Positions 1,924-11,724 of a stretch of 64,000 nucleotides of DNA are shown here, in pieces (position 1 is the stretch's first letter; each line of letters begins with the position of its first letter). A program made the translations under genes and the position numbers. Origin of the DNA: Gemmatimonadota bacterium (GTDB lineage Bacteria > Gemmatimonadota > Gemmatimonadetes > Longimicrobiales > Gaopeijiaceae); assembly GCA_029262115.1 (NCBI GenBank), contig JAJCZZ010000096.1, positions 1 to 64,000 of the forward strand, given 5' to 3'. The notes under the pieces were generated by a model. That model did not search any database. It had not been told where the DNA came from and saw nothing but the letters and a program-made list of their open reading frames with translations.

Positions 1924-4590
1924 ATGAGCCGCAGGTCGGCGCCGCCCCTTTCCGTGGTTGGGCTCGGCGTCACGTTCATGGCGGCAGTCGCGCTCACGGC
2001 TGGACCGGTCGCGGCCCAGTCGTCGGCGGGCGACGGAGGAGCGGAGGGGCGCGGTCCTCTGGTGATGCAAGCTACTCCGGTCACGGGCGACATCGTGATC
2101 GATGGCCGACTCGACGAGTCTGCCTGGTCGTCAGCTCTCGCGGCTCGCGACTTCGTTCAGCTTCAGCCGCTCGAGGGCAGCCCGGCGACCGAACCAACGG
2201 AGGTTCGTATCCTCGTCGACGACGGGGCGATGTACGTGGGCGCACACATGATGGACAGCGATCCGGACGGCATCGTCACACGCCTGGGGCGGCGAGACCA
2301 GGATGTTCAGGCCGATTGGTTCTACATCTACATCGATGGGTACCACGACCGGCGAACCGCCCTCGGCTTCGGCGTCAGCGCCGCCGGTGTCCAACGCGAC
2401 CTCAGGGTCTCCGACGACGTTCAGCGCGACGACGGGTGGGACGCGGTCTGGCAGTCCGAGGTTCGCCGTGTCCCCGATGGGTGGGTTGCCGAGCTGCGCA
2501 TCCCCCTGTCACAGCTTCGGTTCAACCAGGACGGAGCGCCCATGTGGGGCGCCAACTTCGCACGGATCGTGGCTCGGAAGAACGAGCGGAGCCACTGGGC
2601 CCCGATGTCCCAGGGCACGCAGTCGTTCGTGTCACGCTTCGGCGATCTCCTGGGGGTCGACGGCCTCGACCCACGACGACGGGTCGAGATCCTTCCATAC
2701 ACGCTCGCTCGCGTCACCAGCGAGCCGGTCGCGCAGGGCGACCCCTTCAACTCGTCGCAACAGGGAAGCGGCGCTGTAGGAGGGGACCTTCGCGTGGGTC
2801 TCGGGTCCTCGCTCACCCTCTCGGCCACGATCAACCCCGACTTCGGACAGGTCGAGGGAGATCCGGCGGTCCTCAACCTGACCGCCTTCGAGACGTTCCA
2901 GCAGGAGCGCCGACCGTTCTTCCTGGAGGGGGCGGACATCTTCGGCCTCTCGTTTCCGGGCTGGCCGCCCGCGTTCTACTCCCGCCGGATCGGCCGGAGT
3001 CCGCAGGCTCCCAGCCCCTCGGGATCTCTCTATCTCGATCGGCCGACCTCCACGACCATCCTCGGTGCGCTCAAGCTGTCCGGAAAGACGGAGAGCGGGT
3101 GGTCGATCGGTCTCCTCGACGCCCTCACGCCCACCGAGCATACGCGCTATCTCACGACCGACTCGGTCGTGGGCCGAGCCGTTGCCGAGCCCCTGACCCA
3201 CTATGCGGCGGCGAGGGTCGCGCGGGAGTTCCGCGGCGGCCGTTCGTCCGTCGGCCTCCTGGGCACGACGGTGAATCGGGCACTGGCGGACGACCCCGCG
3301 CTGGCCTTCCTGCGAGAGGACGCCTACACCCTGGCGCTCGATGCGCGGCACCGTTTCGCCGGGAGTCGATGGGAGGCCCGGCTCGGCCTCCAGACCAGCA
3401 GCGTGCACGGAGACACCCTGGCCATCCGTCGTGTACAAGCCGCTCCCGGCCACTACTACCAACGTCCGGACGCGGACCATCTGACGCTCGATCCCCTTCG
3501 AACCTCTCTTGGGGGATACCTCGGGGGATTCACCGTCCAGAAGATCGAAGGTACGTGGAAGACCGGAGTGTACACGCAGGCTACATCTCCCGGTTTCGAG
3601 GTGAGCGACCTGGGATTCAACCCCTCGCTCGATCAGGTCAATACCAACGCATGGCTCCGATACGAGGAGTTCACGCCCGGTTCGGTCTTCAGAAGTTGGG
3701 GCCTGGGGTCGTCTTCGATGGTCCAGAGCGACTTCGGCGGGACGCTACAGGAGCTGACCGTCGACGCCGGACTCAACTTCGAGCTTCTGAACTATTGGGG
3801 CGGCAACGTGTGGGTCATGCGTCACCAACCTGCCTGGACGACGGATCACCTGCGCGGCGGGCCGGCGCTGCGGAAGCCCGGCCGATGGATGGGCCAGTTC
3901 GGAGTCAACTCGGATCGGCGAAGCGCGGTGTCCGGGAACGCCTCGGTGTTCTGGGAAGCCGAGGACGAGACCGCCGACCGCTTTGTGAACGTGAGCACCA
4001 CCGTGCGCATCCAGCCATCCGACCGGCTGAACGTCGAGGTGGGTCCCACGGTCAACTTCGGGCGCTCCGACTGGCAATTCGTGGGCGCGTTCGGTGCCCC
4101 GACCGACCGACGCTACCTGGTGGGTGGTCTCGACCGTCGTACGGTGACCCTGACGGGCAGGCTGGACTACGCCGCTTCGAGAACGCTGTCGCTCCAAGTC
4201 TATGCCCGCCCCTTCGTCGGATCGGTGGAGTACGATGCCTTTCGAGAGGTGGACACCCCCTCCGGAGCCTCCTTCTCCGACCGCTTTCGCGATCTGGCAG
4301 TCTCGCCAGAGGAGCGGGACGGCGGTGACGCCCTTTCTCTCGATCGGGACGACGACGGCGTGGCGGACTTCCAATTAGGCGACCCGTCATTCACCACCGC
4401 CGCCGTGCAGGTCAACACCGTTCTGCGCTGGGAGTACCGACCGGGGTCGACGCTGTTCGCCGTTTGGAGTCACGACCGGGACGACTTCGCGCGGGACGAC
4501 TTCGGCCTCGGCCCGAGCGTGGATCGCCTGTGGGCGGCACCGGCCCGGAACGTGTTCATGCTCAAGGTGAGCTACTGGCTGGGGCGCTGA
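1924..4590 (+). CDS. DUF5916 family protein with CBM9-like N-terminal domain
   Basis: A secreted protein of about 888 residues. The N-terminus has a signal peptide (VVGLGVTFMAAVALTAGPVA, then AQS). Residues about 30-220 match the CBM9-like fold typical of this family (IDGRLDESAWSSA, VRILVDDGAMYVGAHM, GWVAELRIPLSQLRF). The remainder is the DUF5916 region, with hallmarks FFLEGADIFGL and FYSRRIGRSP, and its many alternating-hydrophobic strands end in KVSYWLGR as in an outer-membrane beta-barrel. I place the start at 1924 because GGAGG precedes it and the signal peptide follows directly; upstream ATGs at 1876 and 1906 are possible. Family members sit in the outer membrane with unknown substrate, and carbohydrate or peptide handling is only a guess. 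Confidence 0.85.
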   Translation: MSRRSAPPLSVVGLGVTFMAAVALTAGPVAAQSSAGDGGAEGRGPLVMQATPVTGDIVIDGRLDESAWSSALAARDFVQLQPLEGSPATEPTEVRILVDDGAMYVGAHMMDSDPDGIVTRLGRRDQDVQADWFYIYIDGYHDRRTALGFGVSAAGVQRDLRVSDDVQRDDGWDAVWQSEVRRVPDGWVAELRIPLSQLRFNQDGAPMWGANFARIVARKNERSHWAPMSQGTQSFVSRFGDLLGVDGLDPRRRVEILPYTLARVTSEPVAQGDPFNSSQQGSGAVGGDLRVGLGSSLTLSATINPDFGQVEGDPAVLNLTAFETFQQERRPFFLEGADIFGLSFPGWPPAFYSRRIGRSPQAPSPSGSLYLDRPTSTTILGALKLSGKTESGWSIGLLDALTPTEHTRYLTTDSVVGRAVAEPLTHYAAARVAREFRGGRSSVGLLGTTVNRALADDPALAFLREDAYTLALDARHRFAGSRWEARLGLQTSSVHGDTLAIRRVQAAPGHYYQRPDADHLTLDPLRTSLGGYLGGFTVQKIEGTWKTGVYTQATSPGFEVSDLGFNPSLDQVNTNAWLRYEEFTPGSVFRSWGLGSSSMVQSDFGGTLQELTVDAGLNFELLNYWGGNVWVMRHQPAWTTDHLRGGPALRKPGRWMGQFGVNSDRRSAVSGNASVFWEAEDETADRFVNVSTTVRIQPSDRLNVEVGPTVNFGRSDWQFVGAFGAPTDRRYLVGGLDRRTVTLTGRLDYAASRTLSLQVYARPFVGSVEYDAFREVDTPSGASFSDRFRDLAVSPEERDGGDALSLDRDDDGVADFQLGDPSFTTAAVQVNTVLRWEYRPGSTLFAVWSHDRDDFARDDFGLGPSVDRLWAAPARNVFMLKVSYWLGR

Positions 4591-4802
4591 CGACCTCCAC
4601 CACCACCCCACCCCCCGGGTTGGACCACGTAAGCACCTCACTCGGGACGGGTCCATAGCCGAGCGGGCACGGCCAGCCGTGCGCCATCTACTACGGCGAC
4701 GCGAGCGCGTCGAACGCGTCCCCGGCGACGAACCCCACTGTGGTCGTGTCCGCACCGTGACGAGTTGACGGACCGGACGACACTCATGACCTTCTACGGA
4801 CT

Positions 4803-4877
4803 ATGACGATCTCACTCGCTCACCATCACCATCATCACGCGGCCTTTGCGGGCGGCGCGGGCGAGGTGTGCGCGTAG
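4803..4877 (+). CDS. hisL: Histidine operon leader peptide with six consecutive His codons
   Basis: A 24-codon open frame, MTISLA followed by HHHHHH (CAC CAT CAC CAT CAT CAC, 4821-4838), then AAFAGGAGEVCA and TAG at 4875. It lies between the DUF5916 gene and hisG and is followed by a terminator hairpin directly before hisG. This is the architecture of his attenuators in enterobacteria: a ribosome stalls at the His codons when charged tRNA-His is scarce. Mixed use of CAC and CAT argues against a simple-repeat accident. The ribosome binding site is weak (ACGGA only 2 nt from ATG). A TTGACG at 4765-4770 could be a -35, but I find no good -10 partner. Confidence 0.85.
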   Translation: MTISLAHHHHHHAAFAGGAGEVCA

Positions 4878-4917
4878 GACGAACCTTGTCCGACGAGAGC
4901 ATCCGACCGCGGCCCGC
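4848..4917 (+). promoter_or_regulatory. Candidate antiterminator of the his leader
   Basis: GCGGGC at 4848-4853 can pair with GCCCGC at 4912-4917, and CGCGG at 4856-4860 with CCGCG at 4907-4911. Together they give 11 base pairs with a 2-nt bulge. The right half overlaps the 5' arm of the terminator (4906-4915), so the two structures exclude each other. The left half starts 9 nt after the last His codon. A ribosome stalled on the His codons would leave most of it free, while one finishing at the TAG would cover it. A weak 4-bp hairpin GGAC/GTCC (4877-4891) might act as a pause site. Pairings were found by eye, without energy calculation. Confidence 0.55.
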
Positions 4918-4941
4918 TTCAGTGGGCCGCGGTTTTTTTTT
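4906..4941 (+). terminator. Intrinsic terminator (attenuator) upstream of hisG
   Basis: A perfect 10-bp stem ACCGCGGCCC / GGGCCGCGGT (4906-4915 and 4924-4933) with an 8-nt loop is followed by an uninterrupted run of nine Ts (4933-4941). It ends 9 nt before the hisG ATG and directly abuts its GGAG ribosome binding site (4942-4945). A terminator this strong immediately before the first gene of an operon only makes sense if conditional. Confidence 0.9.
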
Positions 4942-4950
4942 GGAGATGAC

Positions 4951-5832
4951 ATGACAGACGAACGACGACCGGTGCGGGTCGCCCTGCCGAACAAGGGGCG
5001 CCTGTCCGAGAAGGCGCTGGCGCTTTTCGAGCAGGCGGGCTTGCGTGCGCAGTTTCGCGCGGACCGGGCGCTCCTGGCGTCCCTCGGACCGCACTTCCAG
5101 GCCATCATGGTGCGCGCGGCCGACATCCCGGAGTTCCTGGCGGACGGGGCGGCGGAGATCGGCGTCACCGGCGCTGACCTCGTGTCCGAGAGCGGGCGCG
5201 ACCTCCATGAAGTCCTGGACCTGGGCTTCGGATCGTGTCGATTGGTCGTGGCGGTCAAGGACGACTCGCCGGTGAGGCGGGCGGCCGATCTCCCGTCGGG
5301 CACCCGGGTCGCAACCTCCTTTCCGGGCATCACCCGGAGATACTTCGCCTCCCTCGGCATCGAGATCGAGGTGGCCACGGTGACCGGCGCAACCGAGATC
5401 GCGCCGCATCTCGGCGTAGCAGACGTCATCGTCGATCTCAGCTCGACCGGCTCCACCCTGCGCGTGAACGGCCTGCGGGAAGTTGACACCGTACTCGAGT
5501 CGTCAGCACGGCTCGTCGCTTCTCCCAGCGCTATGACCGAGCCCACCGTCCGCGCCCGCGTCGACGAACTCGCGACCGCGCTGGAGTCGGTCCTCCGCGC
5601 GCAGGCCAAGCGCTACCTGATGGCCAACGTGCCCCGCGACCGCCTGGAGGACGTGCGGAGGGTGCTCCCGGGCATCAACGGACCGACCATCGTGGATGTC
5701 CTCGACGACGACCGGTGGGTCGCCGCCCATGCCGTGGTGGACGCCGACCGCGTCTACCAGACGATCTCTTCCTTGAAGGATCTGGGCGCCGAAGGCATCC
5801 TGGTGACTCGAATCGAGCGGCTCATGCCATGA
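4951..5832 (+). CDS. hisG: ATP phosphoribosyltransferase, long form
   Basis: Catalyses the first step of histidine synthesis: ATP + PRPP to phosphoribosyl-ATP. At 293 residues it is the long, homohexameric form that needs no HisZ. Visible signatures are RVALPNKGRLSEKAL at the N-terminus, EIGVTGADLV, GFGSCRLVVAV and the PRPP-binding stretch VDLSSTGSTLR. The last 75-80 residues (GPTIVDVL to GAEGILVTRIERL) form the ACT-like regulatory domain that binds histidine. The ATG at 4951 follows GGAG by 5 nt. It is the first structural gene after the attenuator, and its stop overlaps hisD (ATGA). Control is therefore likely double, by attenuation and by feedback inhibition. Confidence 0.97.
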   Translation: MTDERRPVRVALPNKGRLSEKALALFEQAGLRAQFRADRALLASLGPHFQAIMVRAADIPEFLADGAAEIGVTGADLVSESGRDLHEVLDLGFGSCRLVVAVKDDSPVRRAADLPSGTRVATSFPGITRRYFASLGIEIEVATVTGATEIAPHLGVADVIVDLSSTGSTLRVNGLREVDTVLESSARLVASPSAMTEPTVRARVDELATALESVLRAQAKRYLMANVPRDRLEDVRRVLPGINGPTIVDVLDDDRWVAAHAVVDADRVYQTISSLKDLGAEGILVTRIERLMP

Positions 5833-7142
5833 CCATCCATCTGTTCGCCGAAGGGCGGCTGTCCGAACTCTCACCGGACGGTCGGCGGCACCTCCTGGAG
5901 CGCGCCCCCGCTGACGCTCCGGACGTGAGAAATACCGTCGCCGCCCTGATGGAGGATGTGCGCCAGCGCGGAGACGCCGCCCTGCTGGAGATGGCGCATG
6001 ACTTCGACGGCGTCGACCTGGACGTGGTCGAGGTCCCGACGGATCGGTGGCATGCGGCCGCCGCGGAGTTGGATTACGGCTTCGTGTCCGCCCTCACTCG
6101 TGCGGCGGACAACATCCGCACGTTCCACGAGGCGCAGCTCCCCGAAGACGTGGCGGTGGAGGTGGAGCCGGGCGTTCGGATCACCCGGCGCTGGGCTCCT
6201 CTCCAGCGGGTCGGCGTGTACGCGCCGGGGGGCACCGCGGCGTACGCCAGTTCGGTGCTCATGGGGGTCGTGCCGGCCCGGGCGGCCGGAGTGACCGACG
6301 TGATCGTATGTTCGCCGCCGGCCCGCGACACGGGTGAGCCGCCGGTCGAGGTCATGGCGGCGTGCGCTCTAGCCGGAGCAACTCGCCTGTTCGCCGTGGG
6401 TGGGGCTGGCGCGGTGGCGGCGCTCGCCTTTGGCACGCAGTCGATTCCGGCGGTCGACGCGGTCGTCGGCCCAGGCAATCGGTGGGTGACCGAAGCCAAA
6501 CGGCAGGTAGCGGGCCGCGTCGTGATCGATTCGCCCGCGGGGCCGTCGGAGGTCCTGGTCGTTGCCGATGAGTCGGCCAACCCGCGCTTCGTAGCCGCCG
6601 AACTCCTCGCCCAGGCTGAACACGACCCGGAGGCCGCGTGCGTATTGTTGGCTGTGGGCGACGACGTGGGCGACGACGTGGCCGCTCGGGTCAGAGTGGC
6701 TCTCACGGACCTCTTGGCCGACGCGCCCCGCGCGGACATCGCGCGGGAAGCCCTCGCGACCCACGGCGCGATCCTCGTCGCGGCCGATCTGGACGAAGCG
6801 GTCGACTTCGCGGAGGCGTACGCCGCGGAGCATCTGTCGATCATGACCGCCGACGCCGCCGGCGTGGCGGCTCGGATCCCCACGGCCGGCACGACGTTCG
6901 TCGGCCGGTGGGCGTCCGTCGTGTTCGGCGACTACCTGACCGGTGCCAACCATGTCCTTCCCACCGAAGGCAGGGCGCGCAGCTTCTCGGGGCTGAGCAC
7001 GCTCCACTTTCTGCGCAGCTACACCGTCCAGGAGATCGACGAGGTGGGCGCGCGCTCCCTCGCGGCCGACGTTGATCGGCTGGCCCGGGCCGAGGGCCTC
7101 CCGGCGCACGCGTTGGCCGCGCGCCTGCGAGCGCCGGCATGA
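5829..7142 (+). CDS. hisD: Histidinol dehydrogenase
   Basis: NAD-dependent zinc enzyme that oxidises histidinol to histidine in two steps, the last reaction of the pathway. 437 residues, normal for the family. Motifs include GVYAPGGTAAYASSVLMGV, VVGPGNRWVTEAKRQV, the zinc-ligand region LAQAEHDPEAA, and YAAEHLSIMTAD near the C-terminus. The ATG at 5829 overlaps the hisG TGA and the end overlaps hisC (ATGA), so the three are likely translated in a coupled way. An upstream in-frame ATG at 5715 lies inside hisG and is rejected. Confidence 0.97.
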   Translation: MTIHLFAEGRLSELSPDGRRHLLERAPADAPDVRNTVAALMEDVRQRGDAALLEMAHDFDGVDLDVVEVPTDRWHAAAAELDYGFVSALTRAADNIRTFHEAQLPEDVAVEVEPGVRITRRWAPLQRVGVYAPGGTAAYASSVLMGVVPARAAGVTDVIVCSPPARDTGEPPVEVMAACALAGATRLFAVGGAGAVAALAFGTQSIPAVDAVVGPGNRWVTEAKRQVAGRVVIDSPAGPSEVLVVADESANPRFVAAELLAQAEHDPEAACVLLAVGDDVGDDVAARVRVALTDLLADAPRADIAREALATHGAILVAADLDEAVDFAEAYAAEHLSIMTADAAGVAARIPTAGTTFVGRWASVVFGDYLTGANHVLPTEGRARSFSGLSTLHFLRSYTVQEIDEVGARSLAADVDRLARAEGLPAHALAARLRAPA

Positions 7143-8209
7143 GCCCCTTCCCCCGACCGGACTACGAGGCGCTGACGCGCTACACGCCCGACCGGCGCCC
7201 CGTCGGCATCGATCTGAGCGACAATACCAATCTGTGGGGCACGCACCCGGCCGCGTTGGAGCGGATCCGATCCGCCGGTCCCAACGATCTTGCGCGCTAC
7301 CCGGACCTGTATGCGGACAGATTGCGGGAGGCCGTGGCACACCACTTCGGCGTCGCCGTCGACTGCGTGACGACGGGGTGCGGCTCGGACGACGTGCTCG
7401 ACTCGGCCTTTCGAGCCGCGGGTGGTGACAGCGCGACGATCTCCTTCGCCGCTCCCACCTTCTCGATGGTCGAGCCGCTGGCCCGAATGAACGGCATGGA
7501 GGTGCGGCCGACGTCCTGGCCCGACGCCCTCGACGACCCCGGCCTCCTCCTAGCGGGCGCGCCATCCGTCGTCTACGTCTGTCGGCCCAACAACCCGACC
7601 GGTGAGCAAGCTCCCGACGAGTGGCTGGACGAGCTGCTGGCGAGGGTCGGAGGCGACGGTCCCCTCGTCATTCTCGATGAGGCGTATGCGGACTTCGCCG
7701 AGGAGACACGGCTACCCACGGCTCCCGACCACCCCCGGCTTCTCGTCGCGCGAACGGCTTCCAAGGCGTACGGACTTGCCGGCCTGCGGACCGGCTTCGC
7801 GGTCGCGTGCGCAGAGGTCGCCCTCGAGGTCGAGAAGTCGCGCGGGCCCTACAAGGTCACCCGCCTGGGGACGGATGCGGCCGCGGCGGCCGTGCTCGAC
7901 GAGGACGGTTGGATGGCCGGCGTCGTCCGCTCCACCATCGAGAACCGCAGGCGCCTGAGCCGCGAACTGGACGCTCGCGGCTACGCGCCGCTCTCCTCGC
8001 GGAGCAACTTTCTCCTCTTCCGCTCTCTCACCGGCGCAGCTCGGGAGGACGCCCTTCGGTTGCGGGCCCGGGACGTGGCGGTTCGGCCCTTCAGCGGTAT
8101 TCCGGGGATGGGGGACGGGCTCCGCGTGACCGTGGGGCCGTGGTCGATGATGGAGGCGTTCTTGACCGCCCTGGACGAGGAGATCGCAGCGTTGGAGGTC
8201 CGCTCGTGA
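7139..8209 (+). CDS. hisC: Histidinol-phosphate aminotransferase
   Basis: PLP-dependent class I/II aminotransferase converting imidazole-acetol phosphate to histidinol phosphate. 356 residues. The substrate-side motif LSDNTNLWG, the CRPNNPTG motif, LDEAYADFAEE, and the PLP lysine in ARTASKAYGLAGLRTGFA (Lys209) are all visible, as is the C-terminal phosphate-binding Arg context GDGLRVTVG. It overlaps hisD (ATGA) and hisH (GTGA). No histidinol-phosphatase gene is found in the operon, so that step must be encoded elsewhere. Confidence 0.95.
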   Translation: MSPFPRPDYEALTRYTPDRRPVGIDLSDNTNLWGTHPAALERIRSAGPNDLARYPDLYADRLREAVAHHFGVAVDCVTTGCGSDDVLDSAFRAAGGDSATISFAAPTFSMVEPLARMNGMEVRPTSWPDALDDPGLLLAGAPSVVYVCRPNNPTGEQAPDEWLDELLARVGGDGPLVILDEAYADFAEETRLPTAPDHPRLLVARTASKAYGLAGLRTGFAVACAEVALEVEKSRGPYKVTRLGTDAAAAAVLDEDGWMAGVVRSTIENRRRLSRELDARGYAPLSSRSNFLLFRSLTGAAREDALRLRARDVAVRPFSGIPGMGDGLRVTVGPWSMMEAFLTALDEEIAALEVRS

Positions 8210-8919
8210 GGGTCGCCCTGTTCGACTACGGCGCGGGCAACCTGCACTCGCTGGGCAAGGCGATCGAGGCTGAGGGCGTGGACGTCCAGGTCACCGACGA
8301 TTGGGCCGCGGCGCTGGTGATGGACGCCTTGGTGCTGCCGGGTGTCGGGGCATTTGGACAGGCGGCGCGTAGCCTACCCGATGATCGGGCACCGATTCGC
8401 GATGCGCTCGCGGGAGGGCTCCCAGCCATCGGTATCTGTCTGGGCATGCAGCTTCTGTTCGACGGGAGCGACGAGTCTCAGGGAGATGGCATCGGCCTCG
8501 TGCCCGGTCGTGTTCGCAAGCTGGACACCCCGGTGGTGCCCCAGATGGGGTGGAACGATGTCGAGACGCTGGGCGATCCCGTCTTCGCAGGCGTAGACCC
8601 GGCCGTTGCCTATTACGCGAACTCCTACGTGTGCGTACCCGACCACGAGGAGGACGTCATCGCGTGGTCCGAGTACGCCGGCAAGCGCTACGCCGCGGCC
8701 GTGCGGCGACACAACACCTGGGGGCTTCAGTTCCATCCCGAGAAGAGCTCCCATGCGGGGCGGCGGATGCTGGCGAACTGGGTGAGGGCGGCACGGGGCG
8801 TCGTGGTGGCACGGGACGTAGTGGCGGGACGGGAGGTCTTGGCGGCGGGGGACGGTGCGGCGGGACGGGACGGTGACTACCCCAGTCCCGGCGGTCGTCC
8901 CGAAAGCGGTGTGCCATGA
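8206..8919 (+). CDS. hisH: Imidazole glycerol phosphate synthase, glutamine amidotransferase subunit
   Basis: Class I glutaminase that feeds ammonia to HisF. The GTG start at 8206 overlaps the hisC stop. Signatures are VALFDYGAGNLHSL, LPGVGAFGQA, the nucleophile GICLGMQLLF (Cys78), and the catalytic His/Glu in LQFHPEKSS. The core ends near residue 197 (MLANWVRAARG). The frame then adds about 40 residues of low-complexity, Gly/Ala/Arg/Asp-rich sequence encoded by near-repeats of GGCGGGACGGGA before stopping inside the hisA start (ATGA). This tail is unusual for HisH and looks like repeat expansion that moved the stop codon. The HisF partner lies three genes downstream. Confidence 0.95.
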   Translation: MRVALFDYGAGNLHSLGKAIEAEGVDVQVTDDWAAALVMDALVLPGVGAFGQAARSLPDDRAPIRDALAGGLPAIGICLGMQLLFDGSDESQGDGIGLVPGRVRKLDTPVVPQMGWNDVETLGDPVFAGVDPAVAYYANSYVCVPDHEEDVIAWSEYAGKRYAAAVRRHNTWGLQFHPEKSSHAGRRMLANWVRAARGVVVARDVVAGREVLAAGDGAAGRDGDYPSPGGRPESGVP

Positions 8920-9716
8920 GCGGAGCCCTCACGCCCGCCAAGTGCATCGCCGCGCCAGCCGTCGACCTCCGAGGCGGCCGTTGCGTTCAGCTTGTGGGCG
9001 GCCGCCCCGAAGACGAGCGCGTCTCGCTTCCCGACCCCGTCGCCGTGGCGGAGCGGTGGTGGCGTCTGGGCTTCTCCGTCCTGCACGTTGTCGATCTGGA
9101 CGCCGCGCTCGGCACGGGTGACAACCTCGAGGTGATCCGCCAGATCCTTACGGCCACCCCGGCCACGGTCCAGGTCGGCGGCGGCGTCCGTGCGGAGGAA
9201 CGGGCCGACGCGCTGATCGAAGCCGGAGCCGCCCGCGTGGTCGTCGGCACCCGCGCGCTGGACGATGCTGATTGGCTGAGGGCCCTTTCGGTCCGCCATC
9301 CCGGCCGCATCATGGTCGCGGCCGACACCCGCGACGGTGAGGTGCTGCGGAAAGGCTGGACGGAGGGGTCAGGAGTCGCGGCAGGTGACTTCCTCGCCAG
9401 CCTGCGGAGCCTGGATCTGGCCGGCCTGCTGGCCACCGACGTCGGTCGCGAAGGGCGGATGGAGGGCATCGACCGCGGCCAGGTCGCGGCCACGGTGGAG
9501 GCGTCACCGTTTCCCACGTGGATCTCGGGCGGTGTGACCACCCTCGATGAGATGGCATGGTTGGACTCCATCGGTGCGGCAGGAGCCGTGCTCGGCATGG
9601 CGCTGTACGCTGGAGAGTTGGACGCCCCCACCCTCGCCGCGCGGTGGGGCGCAGGTACGAATACGCTGGACCCGACAGAGGCGGTATCCCCCGGAACCGA
9701 GAACACCGATGAGTAA
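8916..9716 (+). CDS. hisA: ProFAR isomerase (phosphoribosylformimino-5-aminoimidazole carboxamide ribotide isomerase)
   Basis: TIM-barrel isomerase performing the Amadori rearrangement of ProFAR to PRFAR. 266 residues. Both phosphate-binding halves are present: PAVDLRGGRCVQL with the first catalytic Asp, LHVVDLDAAL, VQVGGGVRAEE, then the second catalytic region MVAADTRDGEV, TDVGREGRMEGID and WISGGVTTLDE. The last 20 or so residues after LAARWG are a variable tail. It overlaps hisH by 4 nt and hisB by 8 nt. The TDVGREG pattern fits HisA rather than the HisA/TrpF bifunctional PriA, but this is only a motif judgement. Confidence 0.93.
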   Translation: MSGALTPAKCIAAPAVDLRGGRCVQLVGGRPEDERVSLPDPVAVAERWWRLGFSVLHVVDLDAALGTGDNLEVIRQILTATPATVQVGGGVRAEERADALIEAGAARVVVGTRALDDADWLRALSVRHPGRIMVAADTRDGEVLRKGWTEGSGVAAGDFLASLRSLDLAGLLATDVGREGRMEGIDRGQVAATVEASPFPTWISGGVTTLDEMAWLDSIGAAGAVLGMALYAGELDAPTLAARWGAGTNTLDPTEAVSPGTENTDE

Positions 9717-10251
9717 GCTCAAGCGTGAAACCCGTGAGACACAGATCGTCTGTTCCGTGCGTGTGGGAAGCGGCACAGCGACCATCGAGACCGGCGACCG
9801 GTTCCTGACGCACATGCTCGAGACGCTGGCGCGGTACTCCGGACTCGACATCTCGATCGAAGCCACCGGCGACATGCGCCACCACCTGCTCGAGGACGTG
9901 GCCATCGTTCTGGGTCAGGCCCTCCGGGACGAGGTCCCGGCGCACGCGACCCGGTTCGGTTCGTCCCTCGTTCCGATGGACGAGGCCCTGGTCGAGGCCG
10001 CCATCGACGTGGGCGGCCGCCCGTTCTACGTGGGGGAGCTGCCGTCACACCTGTACGAGCACTTCCTGCACTCCTTCGCGACGAATCTCGGCGCCACGCT
10101 ACACGTGCGGGTCGTCCGTGGTCGTGACAAACATCACGTGGTGGAGGCCGCCGTGAAGGCCACGGGCTTGGCGCTGCGTCAGGCGTTGATCGAAGGCGAT
10201 GCGGTGTTCAGCACCAAGGGCGCTGTTCAGATCGAGCGGCTGGACGACTGA
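9709..10251 (+). CDS. hisB: Imidazoleglycerol-phosphate dehydratase, monofunctional and divergent
   Basis: Dehydrates IGP to imidazole-acetol phosphate using two manganese ions. 180 residues; there is no N-terminal phosphatase domain. Metal-ligand motifs are kept: THML, the HHLLED box, LYEHFLHS and the KHHVVEA box, plus the C-terminal STKG. Two commonly conserved positions differ: the usual DHML is THML, and the His of the following ARHG-like stretch is Tyr (LARYSGLD). I still expect an active enzyme because all metal-binding His/Glu positions I can identify are present. The start overlaps the end of hisA by 8 nt; 52 nt separate the gene from hisF. Confidence 0.92.
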   Translation: MSKLKRETRETQIVCSVRVGSGTATIETGDRFLTHMLETLARYSGLDISIEATGDMRHHLLEDVAIVLGQALRDEVPAHATRFGSSLVPMDEALVEAAIDVGGRPFYVGELPSHLYEHFLHSFATNLGATLHVRVVRGRDKHHVVEAAVKATGLALRQALIEGDAVFSTKGAVQIERLDD

Positions 10252-10303
10252 TGACCGCGAGACGGCTGGAAGCGCCCACTGTGGTGACGCCCGGGTGGAC
10301 GCC

Positions 10304-11083
10304 ATGCTGAGACCCCGCGTCATCGTCTGCCTCGACGTGAAGGAGGGACGGGTCGTGAAGGGAACGCGGTTCAAGGGGCTGCGCGACGTCGGCGACCCCG
10401 TCGAGTTGGCGGCGCGCTACGAGGAGGAAGGGGCCGACGAGGTGGTGTTTCTCGACGTGTCCGCCTCCAGGGAGGGGCGAGGCACCCTGCTGGACACGGT
10501 TCGACGAACGGCCGAGCGGCTGTTCATTCCACTGACGGTGGGCGGTGGCGTGCGCACCGTGGAGGACATCGGGCCGATGCTGCGCGCCGGCGCTGATAAG
10601 ATCAGCGTCAACAGCGCGGCCGTCCGCGATCCGTCGATCCTGACCGAGGGCGCGGAGCAGTTCGGATCCCAGTGCATCGTGGCCAGCATCGACGCGGCGC
10701 GAGACAGCGACATGTACCGGTGTTATACACACGGCGGCTCCCAGCCGACCGAACTCGATGCGCTCGAGTGGGCGGCCGAGTGCAAGGACCGGGGTGCCGG
10801 GGAGATTCTCCTGACGTCGATCGACCGCGACGGCGTCCGGACCGGCTACGAGCTCGAGCTCACCCGAGCCGTGGCCGAGCGGGTGCACGTGCCCGTCATC
10901 GCTTCGGGGGGCGCCGGGGCGTCCGAGCACCTGCGTGACGCCTTCGCTCAGGGCCTGGCCTCGGCCGCGCTTGTCGCGGGTATCCTCCACGACGGCGTGA
11001 CCACCGTGAGTGCGCTGAAGCGCGACCTGACCGGATGGGGCGTTCCGGTCCGGATGACTTCTCCCACTTCGGCATCGCCATGA
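10304..11083 (+). CDS. hisF: Imidazole glycerol phosphate synthase, cyclase subunit
   Basis: TIM-barrel subunit that cyclises PRFAR to IGP and AICAR with ammonia from HisH. 259 residues from the ATG at 10304, whose product opens [18 protein letters not shown] with the catalytic Asp; a GTG at 10295 is an alternative. Further signatures: [35 protein letters not shown], the second catalytic Asp in [31 protein letters not shown] and [10 protein letters not shown]. It ends in an ATGA overlap with hisIE. The distance between hisH and hisF is no obstacle, since the subunits assemble after translation. Confidence 0.96.
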
Positions 11084-11724
11084 CAGACCGCGCACTCCGC
11101 ACCGCCGCCGACCTCGATCGACTGGACTGGAACAAGGCGGAGGGGCTCGTTCCGGTGGTGGTTCAGGACGCGGACCGTCGCTCCGTTCTGATGGTTGCCT
11201 GGGCCAACCGAGACGCGTTGAAGGCGACCCTGAGCAGCGGCTGCCTCCACTTCTGGTCGCGGTCGCGCGGCCGCCTGTGGAAGAAGGGTGAGACCAGCGG
11301 CAACACGCTGGACCTCGTCTCTGTGCACGCCGACTGCGACGGAGATACGGTGTTGGCGCTCGCTCGTCCCGCCGGCCCGGCGTGTCACACCGGTGAGGCG
11401 ACCTGCTTCGGCGACCTGGAGGAAGTCGGGGGCGGGGCAACCCGCTCCCTCGGTACGGTTCTGGACGAACTGGATGCCGTCCTCGCGGAGCGGCAGGCCA
11501 CCGGGGGAGAGGGCTCCTACACGGTTCGCCTGCTCGGCGACGAGAATCTCCGCCTGAAGAAGCTCGGCGAGGAGACCGCGGAGCTGGTCACCGCACTAGC
11601 CAAAGCGGAAGGCGATCGCATTCCGGAGGAGGCGGCCGACCTTCTCTATCACATCCTGGCGGCCGTGCGGGGCGCCGGCGTGAGTCTGGACGCGGTGGCC
11701 GAGGTGCTACGGGGGCGGCGCTGA
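11080..11724 (+). CDS. hisI: Bifunctional phosphoribosyl-AMP cyclohydrolase / phosphoribosyl-ATP pyrophosphatase
   Basis: Carries out steps 2 and 3 of the pathway in one chain (HisIE fusion), 214 residues. Residues about 1-115 are the HisI cyclohydrolase with the zinc motif HADCDGDTVL and GPACHTGEATCF. Residues about 120-214 are the HisE pyrophosphohydrolase, an all-alpha MazG-like fold with LKKLGEETAELVTALAK and PEEAADLLYHIL. The ATG at 11080 overlaps the hisF stop. This is the last gene of the operon. Its 3' end overlaps the 3' end of the convergent hydrolase gene by 18 nt, with no room for a separate terminator. Confidence 0.96.
   Translation: MTDRALRTAADLDRLDWNKAEGLVPVVVQDADRRSVLMVAWANRDALKATLSSGCLHFWSRSRGRLWKKGETSGNTLDLVSVHADCDGDTVLALARPAGPACHTGEATCFGDLEEVGGGATRSLGTVLDELDAVLAERQATGGEGSYTVRLLGDENLRLKKLGEETAELVTALAKAEGDRIPEEAADLLYHILAAVRGAGVSLDAVAEVLRGRR

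Follow-up and report, generated by a model that had tools for sequence, protein, structure and literature searches.

The enterobacterial his leader (hisL) has an ordinary 5′ UTR with a Shine-Dalgarno sequence and a longer series of alternative stems than the element reported here, and in trpL of E. coli the Trp codons lie within arm 1 of the alternative structures, with arm 2 beyond the stop codon. Leaderless leader peptides have been documented in Streptomyces, where none of the eight described is for histidine (PMC8079986), and in the trpL of Sinorhizobium (PMC7298713), and mycobacterial polycysteine attenuators are cited in PMC13236596. Attenuators with His leaders have been proposed in several Firmicutes (PMC9413887; for hisS/hisZ in PMC2965389), and no such attenuators were found for the his operons of Actinobacteria (PMC1262725). 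Whether attenuators travel or originate anew is a question left by PMC2965389. The literature that we searched, mostly papers free of subscription, held no report of attenuation in Gemmatimonadota or Myxococcus, and within that literature the statement of a preliminary description of our locus, that no example from Gemmatimonadota had been described, holds. A comparative study by the Lyubetsky group, from about 2010, may include some of these groups.

In the 64-kb stretch of Gemmatimonadota DNA analysed here (the window), we identified an element before hisG that is very likely a ribosome-mediated transcription attenuator of the his operon. Its ORF, His run, arms, terminator, promoter position and conservation come from the sequence and its comparison with relatives. 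The features of the locus are as follows.

4765..4770, + strand: predicted -35 element TTGACG (TTGAC conserved in relatives)
4788..4793, + strand: predicted -10 element GACCTT, a weak match (same place and spacing in relatives)
4803..4877, + strand: his leader peptide ORF, 24 codons, MTISLAHHHHHHAAFAGGAGEVCA (ATG at 4803, TAG to 4877)
4821..4838, + strand: six successive His codons, the putative sensing element (read from the sequence)
4837..4845, + strand: arm 1 (GCGGCC region), adjoining the His run on its 3′ side (fold; covarying hairpin in relatives)
4848..4860, + strand: arm 2 (GCGGGCGGCGCGG), antiterminator 5′ arm within the leader ORF (folds, covariation)
4905..4934, + strand: intrinsic terminator hairpin, 13 pairs, loop UUCA (pattern scan, covariation in relatives)
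4907..4917, + strand: arm 3, terminator 5′ arm, with arm 2 (antiterminator) or arm 4 (terminator) as partner
4933..4941, + strand: terminator U run, nine T (read from the sequence)
4942..4945, + strand: Shine-Dalgarno GGAG of hisG (read from the sequence)
4951..5832, + strand: hisG, ATP phosphoribosyltransferase, long form with C-terminal domain (PF01634, 180.7 bits; PF08029, 86.5 bits)
5832..7142, + strand: hisD, histidinol dehydrogenase, approximate start (PF00815)
7139..8209, + strand: hisC-like aminotransferase (PF00155)
8206..8919, + strand: hisH, glutamine amidotransferase, approximate start (PF00117)
8916..9716, + strand: hisA (PF00977)
9700..10251, + strand: hisB, IGP dehydratase, approximate start (PF00475)
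10298..11083, + strand: hisF, approximate start (PF00977, 271.5 bits)
11080..11724, + strand: hisIE, approximate start (PF01502 and PF01503)

The leader ORF reads ATG ACG ATC TCA CTC GCT (CAY)6 GCG GCC TTT GCG GGC GGC GCG GGC GAG GTG TGC GCG TAG, and the 24-codon leader with six successive His codons of the preliminary description is indeed present at 4803-4877, with the His run at 4821-4838. A short ORF thus carries successive codons for the operon's own amino acid, and (CAY)6 occurred only here when both strands of the 64 kb were scanned and in none of 100 shuffles. A six-codon ORF (MTFYGL and a stop, window positions 4786-4806), the stop of which overlaps the leader start codon (ATGA), is probably due to chance and would sit upstream of the predicted transcription start. 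After the leader, the operon has the order hisGDCHABF(IE), all on the + strand, and the long form of HisG recognised earlier was confirmed by PF01634 together with PF08029. In the same genome, a search for comparable attenuators near leuA, ilvB and trpE showed no terminator within about 1.5 kb upstream. Homoserine dehydrogenase (PF00742) was not found in the assembly, which is 96% complete; threonine/methionine synthesis in this genome may be missing or unusual.

A terminator pattern scan of 4000-6000 returned a single terminator-like site, 4905-4934, which lies between the leader ORF and the first structural gene. Its stem has 13 pairs, including the end A-U and G-U, and not the 10 bp first described, while the nine Ts (4933-4941) and the position just before hisG (U run to 4941, hisG start at 4951) stand. 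When the RNA was cut at 4920, where the 5′ arm of the terminator exists and its 3′ arm does not, folding of 4848-4920 or 4798-4920 placed 4848-4853 and 4856-4860 on 4907-4917 with a 2-nt bulge, at -44.5 to -45.3 kcal/mol for the folds with this pairing (2:3), which recovered exactly the coordinates previously proposed for an antiterminator (4848-4860 with 4907-4917) that shares an arm with the terminator. The fold to 4941 consisted of a leader hairpin (including 4836-4858) and the terminator, with a terminator probability of 0.997, and the full transcript (-66.5 kcal/mol, z of -3.2 against shuffles) likewise formed the terminator and a leader hairpin upstream of it; 4836-4860 alone folded at -12.2 kcal/mol. 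The fold therefore switched from 2:3 at 4920 to 1:2 plus 3:4 at 4941. Arm 1 pairs with arm 2 and is nearly identical in sequence to arm 3. Since arms 2 and 4 are likewise similar, both being the complement of that sequence, two global states result, 1:2 plus 3:4 versus 2:3. Pairing 1:4 is also possible once all four arms are made, and at equilibrium the fragment 4848-4941 favoured the terminator. Hairpin 1:2 adjoins the sensing codons, as a protector hairpin does, and a stalled ribosome could block it in the geometry considered below.

No promoter was found by a generic sigma-70 scan, and one emerged only on aligning the relatives by the leader AUG. Of 98 leaders, 80 had TTGAC at -33 to -41 from that AUG, compared with a mean of 0.46 and a maximum of 3 in shuffles, and the hexamer 17 nt beyond it was TAnnTT-like in most; at the site of the window's GACCTT, close relatives had CAACTT, GAGCTT and CACCTT. 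The predicted promoter upstream of the leader ORF in the window has a 17-nt spacer and a -10 box ending 9 nt before the leader AUG, a distance that was 5-10 nt in 78 of the 88 leaders scored. As a start site usually lies 6-8 nt beyond the -10 box, transcription is expected to begin at about 4800-4803, no more than about 3 nt from the leader AUG. Shine-Dalgarno-like 4-mers preceded the leader in 11 of the 98 cases, versus 33 before hisG. Since the -10 box is close to the AUG and a Shine-Dalgarno sequence is absent, the leader mRNA is probably leaderless, a prediction made from promoter position only. As the predicted promoter lies upstream of both leader and terminator, the terminator would lie inside the his transcript.

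For comparison, regions upstream of hisG were taken from the same family, order, class and phylum and from named GTDB relatives, which gave 139 distinct regions, a few of them from outside Gemmatimonadota (Archangium, Jiangellales, an archaeon). The label Gemmatimonadota borne by named relatives places the host in that phylum. Leaders were counted in the 135 regions with at least 150 nt, as short ORFs with at least 4 His within 8 codons. Such a His-rich ORF was detected in 98 of these 135, and a hairpin with a U run before hisG in 87 of the 98; for each of the eight other amino acids with two codons (Gln, Asn, Asp, Glu, Tyr, Cys, Phe and Lys), the same ORF search returned 0-2. About a quarter of the phylum's hisG regions had no such leader. 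The lack of a conserved His run or terminator in relatives had been named at the outset as the outcome that would speak against attenuation; we looked for it, and it did not occur. Most leaders were 22-31 codons long and 94 of the 98 started with ATG. Their CAN codons comprised 605 for His (CAT/CAC) versus 35 for Gln, so that the third position varies almost only synonymously, which amounts to coding conservation.

These figures bear on a first alternative, in which the hairpin simply ends transcription of the upstream gene, or damps his expression constitutively, and the His run senses nothing. The upstream gene, encoding a DUF5916 protein, is on the same strand and ends at 4590, about 315 nt before the hairpin, which speaks for this explanation, but the conserved promoter sits in the interval from that gene to the terminator, the His codons show codon-level conservation across the phylum, and the spacing of His run and terminator hardly varies among relatives. 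We therefore consider it very unlikely. Attenuation by a translating ribosome, as originally suggested, is supported by the recurrence of the His ORF, terminator and antiterminator before hisG, with covariation, and is favoured because cognate codons precede the cognate operon.

The peptides of the relatives had the form HHHH...GPTGRG or HHHH...TGRV. Read as RNA, the TGR codons ACG GGC CGC form the reverse complement of GCGGCCCGT, the 5′ arm of the terminator, so the TGR motif is the antiterminator arm, and arm 2 of the window is the counterpart of these conserved codons; the codons preceding TGR form a small hairpin with the TGR arm. A coding signature as real as that of the His codons over Gln could also be expected if the ORF made a functional His-rich peptide, for example for metal binding, while the terminator controlled something else. 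Yet what is conserved outside the His run, TGR, is accounted for by its pairing with the terminator, the N-terminal residues of the leader are not conserved, and the ORF is seen directly before hisG, with one strong copy in the genome, which together make a functional peptide a highly improbable explanation, even less likely than a plain terminator.

Covariation was assessed in an alignment of 85 sequences (A1), the window among them. For the terminator, 9 of 12 pairs change on both sides, and 85.6% of cells were paired versus at most 48% when the arms were slid; for the antiterminator, the values were 78.9% versus at most 49%, with a covariation score above all shuffles. In 29 close relatives, the antiterminator was paired in 82.1% of cells, with marginal covariation, and hairpin 1:2 in 87.9%, one of its pairs being seen as GC, CG, GU, UA, UG and AU. 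The signal of hairpin 1:2 was blurred when all sequences were placed in one register, and it appeared in the subset with its own register. Duplexes of leader to arm 3 averaged -20.0 kcal/mol versus -17.1 for shuffles. The antiterminator paired modestly better with a genome's own arm than with arms of other genomes (median rank 0.41), where swapping is uninformative because the arms are too conserved. Much of the antiterminator arm is invariant in sequence, and support for the antiterminator is weaker than that for the other helices, but it is present. As shuffle controls ignore relatedness, we gave more weight to the slid controls and to pairs changed on both sides. Judging from these comparisons, the attenuator is real, conserved and very probably functional.

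Some genomes departed from this pattern. In genus g12 (L080-L084), where HisG is about 69% identical to that of the window over the aligned part, no His leader was found and hisG seems to lie close behind another gene's ORF, a possible loss of attenuation. A divergent HisG, with about 31-37% identity over the aligned part, was seen in L086, L162, L163, L166, L226 and L227. These genomes also have a His leader and a hairpin, mostly with other arms (of the GCCGGC type), which means that the switch occurs with more than one HisG lineage. HisG was not found in 68 of the 249 genomes of the phylum sample, most of them more than 90% complete, which suggests histidine auxotrophs, assembly gaps or an unrecognised route.

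No Rfam family reached its threshold in the 64 kb, relaxed thresholds brought up no valid hit either, and the His_leader family RF00514 scored 18.3 bits on the window against a cut-off of 49. The element works like hisL and, by the cut-off of the covariance model, is not a member of RF00514. The Rfam result also bears on the idea that a T-box, riboswitch or RNA-binding protein acts on the same terminator in place of a translating ribosome. In other phyla, his genes are under the control of T-boxes and of the repressor HisR (PMC9413887), but no T-box was matched here even at a relaxed threshold, and the run of cognate codons is conserved, with its synonymous variation; we give this idea as little credence as the functional peptide.

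From this arrangement we infer that the leader is translated, that stalling occurs, that transcription starts where predicted and that the operon responds to histidine. A ribosome would load on an essentially leaderless message. With ample His-tRNA, it would clear the His codons, and hairpin 1:2 would re-form behind it, or the ribosome at the stop codon would disturb arm 2; 3:4 would then form and transcription would be terminated before hisG. Arm 2 lies 5′ of the leader stop codon, and a ribosome waiting at the stop covers only its 3′ edge, so termination under plenty would rely on 1:2 re-forming. With scarce His-tRNA, the ribosome would stall within the His run. A ribosome's leading edge reaches some 13-14 nt beyond the first nucleotide of the A-site codon, so that stalling at His 3-5 would hide arm 1 and leave arm 2 free; arm 2 could then form 2:3 before arm 4 is made, and transcription would go on. 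Since equilibrium no longer favours 2:3 when arm 4 has been made, the decision to antiterminate would have to be kinetic, as is usual for attenuators.

A covariance model built from A1 (R1) scored 75 bits on the window, the next best site in the genome reaching 22.7; the scores of the window and of three Archangium loci are partly by construction, as all are in A1. Among 193 sampled Myxococcota genomes, 68 matched at 60 bits or more. All 30 such loci that we inspected were before hisG with a His-rich ORF, and nearly all had a TTGACG promoter at a similar place. Loci L226-L228 (39.5-42.5 bits) also carried His leaders before hisG. The element is essentially absent from Actinomycetota, where 3 of 199 genomes matched weakly; one of these (G297, Jiangellales) was an HHH leader before hisG, and another (L216) was rejected on inspection as an ordinary gene-end terminator. 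Weak matches in Myxococcota and Actinomycetota (about 34-41 bits) that were gene-end terminators or Thr leaders were not counted. The Thr leaders, in Myxococcota (L217, L218, L219 and L222), have a short ORF in which 8-10 or more Thr codons follow one another almost without a break (for example VLTTVLTTTTTTTTTTPRRARVV, then a stop), followed by a terminator and aspartokinase, fused with homoserine dehydrogenase in L219; they represent a probable threonine attenuator.

In the HisG tree, for which no root was inferred, Myxococcota formed one clade (100/98) beside Gemmatimonadaceae with weak support (82/77), a topology that fits transfer of the his operon with its switch and gives no direction. 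One assembly labelled Planctomycetota (L033) had a HisG nested among Gemmatimonadota and is probably mislabelled. Taking these results together, we think it likely that the leaderless three-hairpin his attenuator is an undescribed RNA family, found throughout Gemmatimonadota and homologous in Myxococcota, with a probable transfer of operon plus switch, and that TGR is dictated by RNA pairing and not by protein function.

The principle is textbook; the phyla, the RNA family and the layout appear undescribed in the searchable literature. A textbook control circuit is hereby extended to a phylum without a case in that literature. The promoter, the start site and three alternative helices are now predicted in specific terms, and R1 would allow annotation of his operons in two phyla. 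The leaderless promoter arrangement, the hairpin directly after the His codons and the meaning of the TGR codons go beyond the preliminary description. Finding the same arms in distant phyla offers a way into the question whether an attenuator moves with its operon or originates afresh. This variant combines a compact layout of three hairpins, a probable leaderless start and conservation across the phylum, and it is shared with Myxococcota.

Like the His leaders proposed in separate lineages of Firmicutes, the element has, by description, a predicted His-rich leader and an alternative terminator outside Proteobacteria. The earlier view that it lies outside the classical groups has to be qualified by those Firmicutes leaders (PMC2965389, PMC9413887) and by the same element in Myxococcota. 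As in the leaderless attenuators of Actinobacteria and Sinorhizobium, the transcript is predicted to begin at the leader start codon, although those serve other amino acids and phyla; the locus suggests that leaderless messages can support attenuation beyond Actinobacteria and alpha-proteobacteria. With trp-type attenuators (1:2, 2:3, 3:4) it has the logic and the number of hairpins in common, whereas, unlike in trpL, its arm 1 begins directly after the His codons and its arm 2 is still inside the ORF. It resembles enterobacterial hisL (RF00514) in the His run within a short leader ORF and in the mutually exclusive terminator and antiterminator before hisG, and differs from it in having three alternative hairpins and, as predicted, probably no 5′ UTR.
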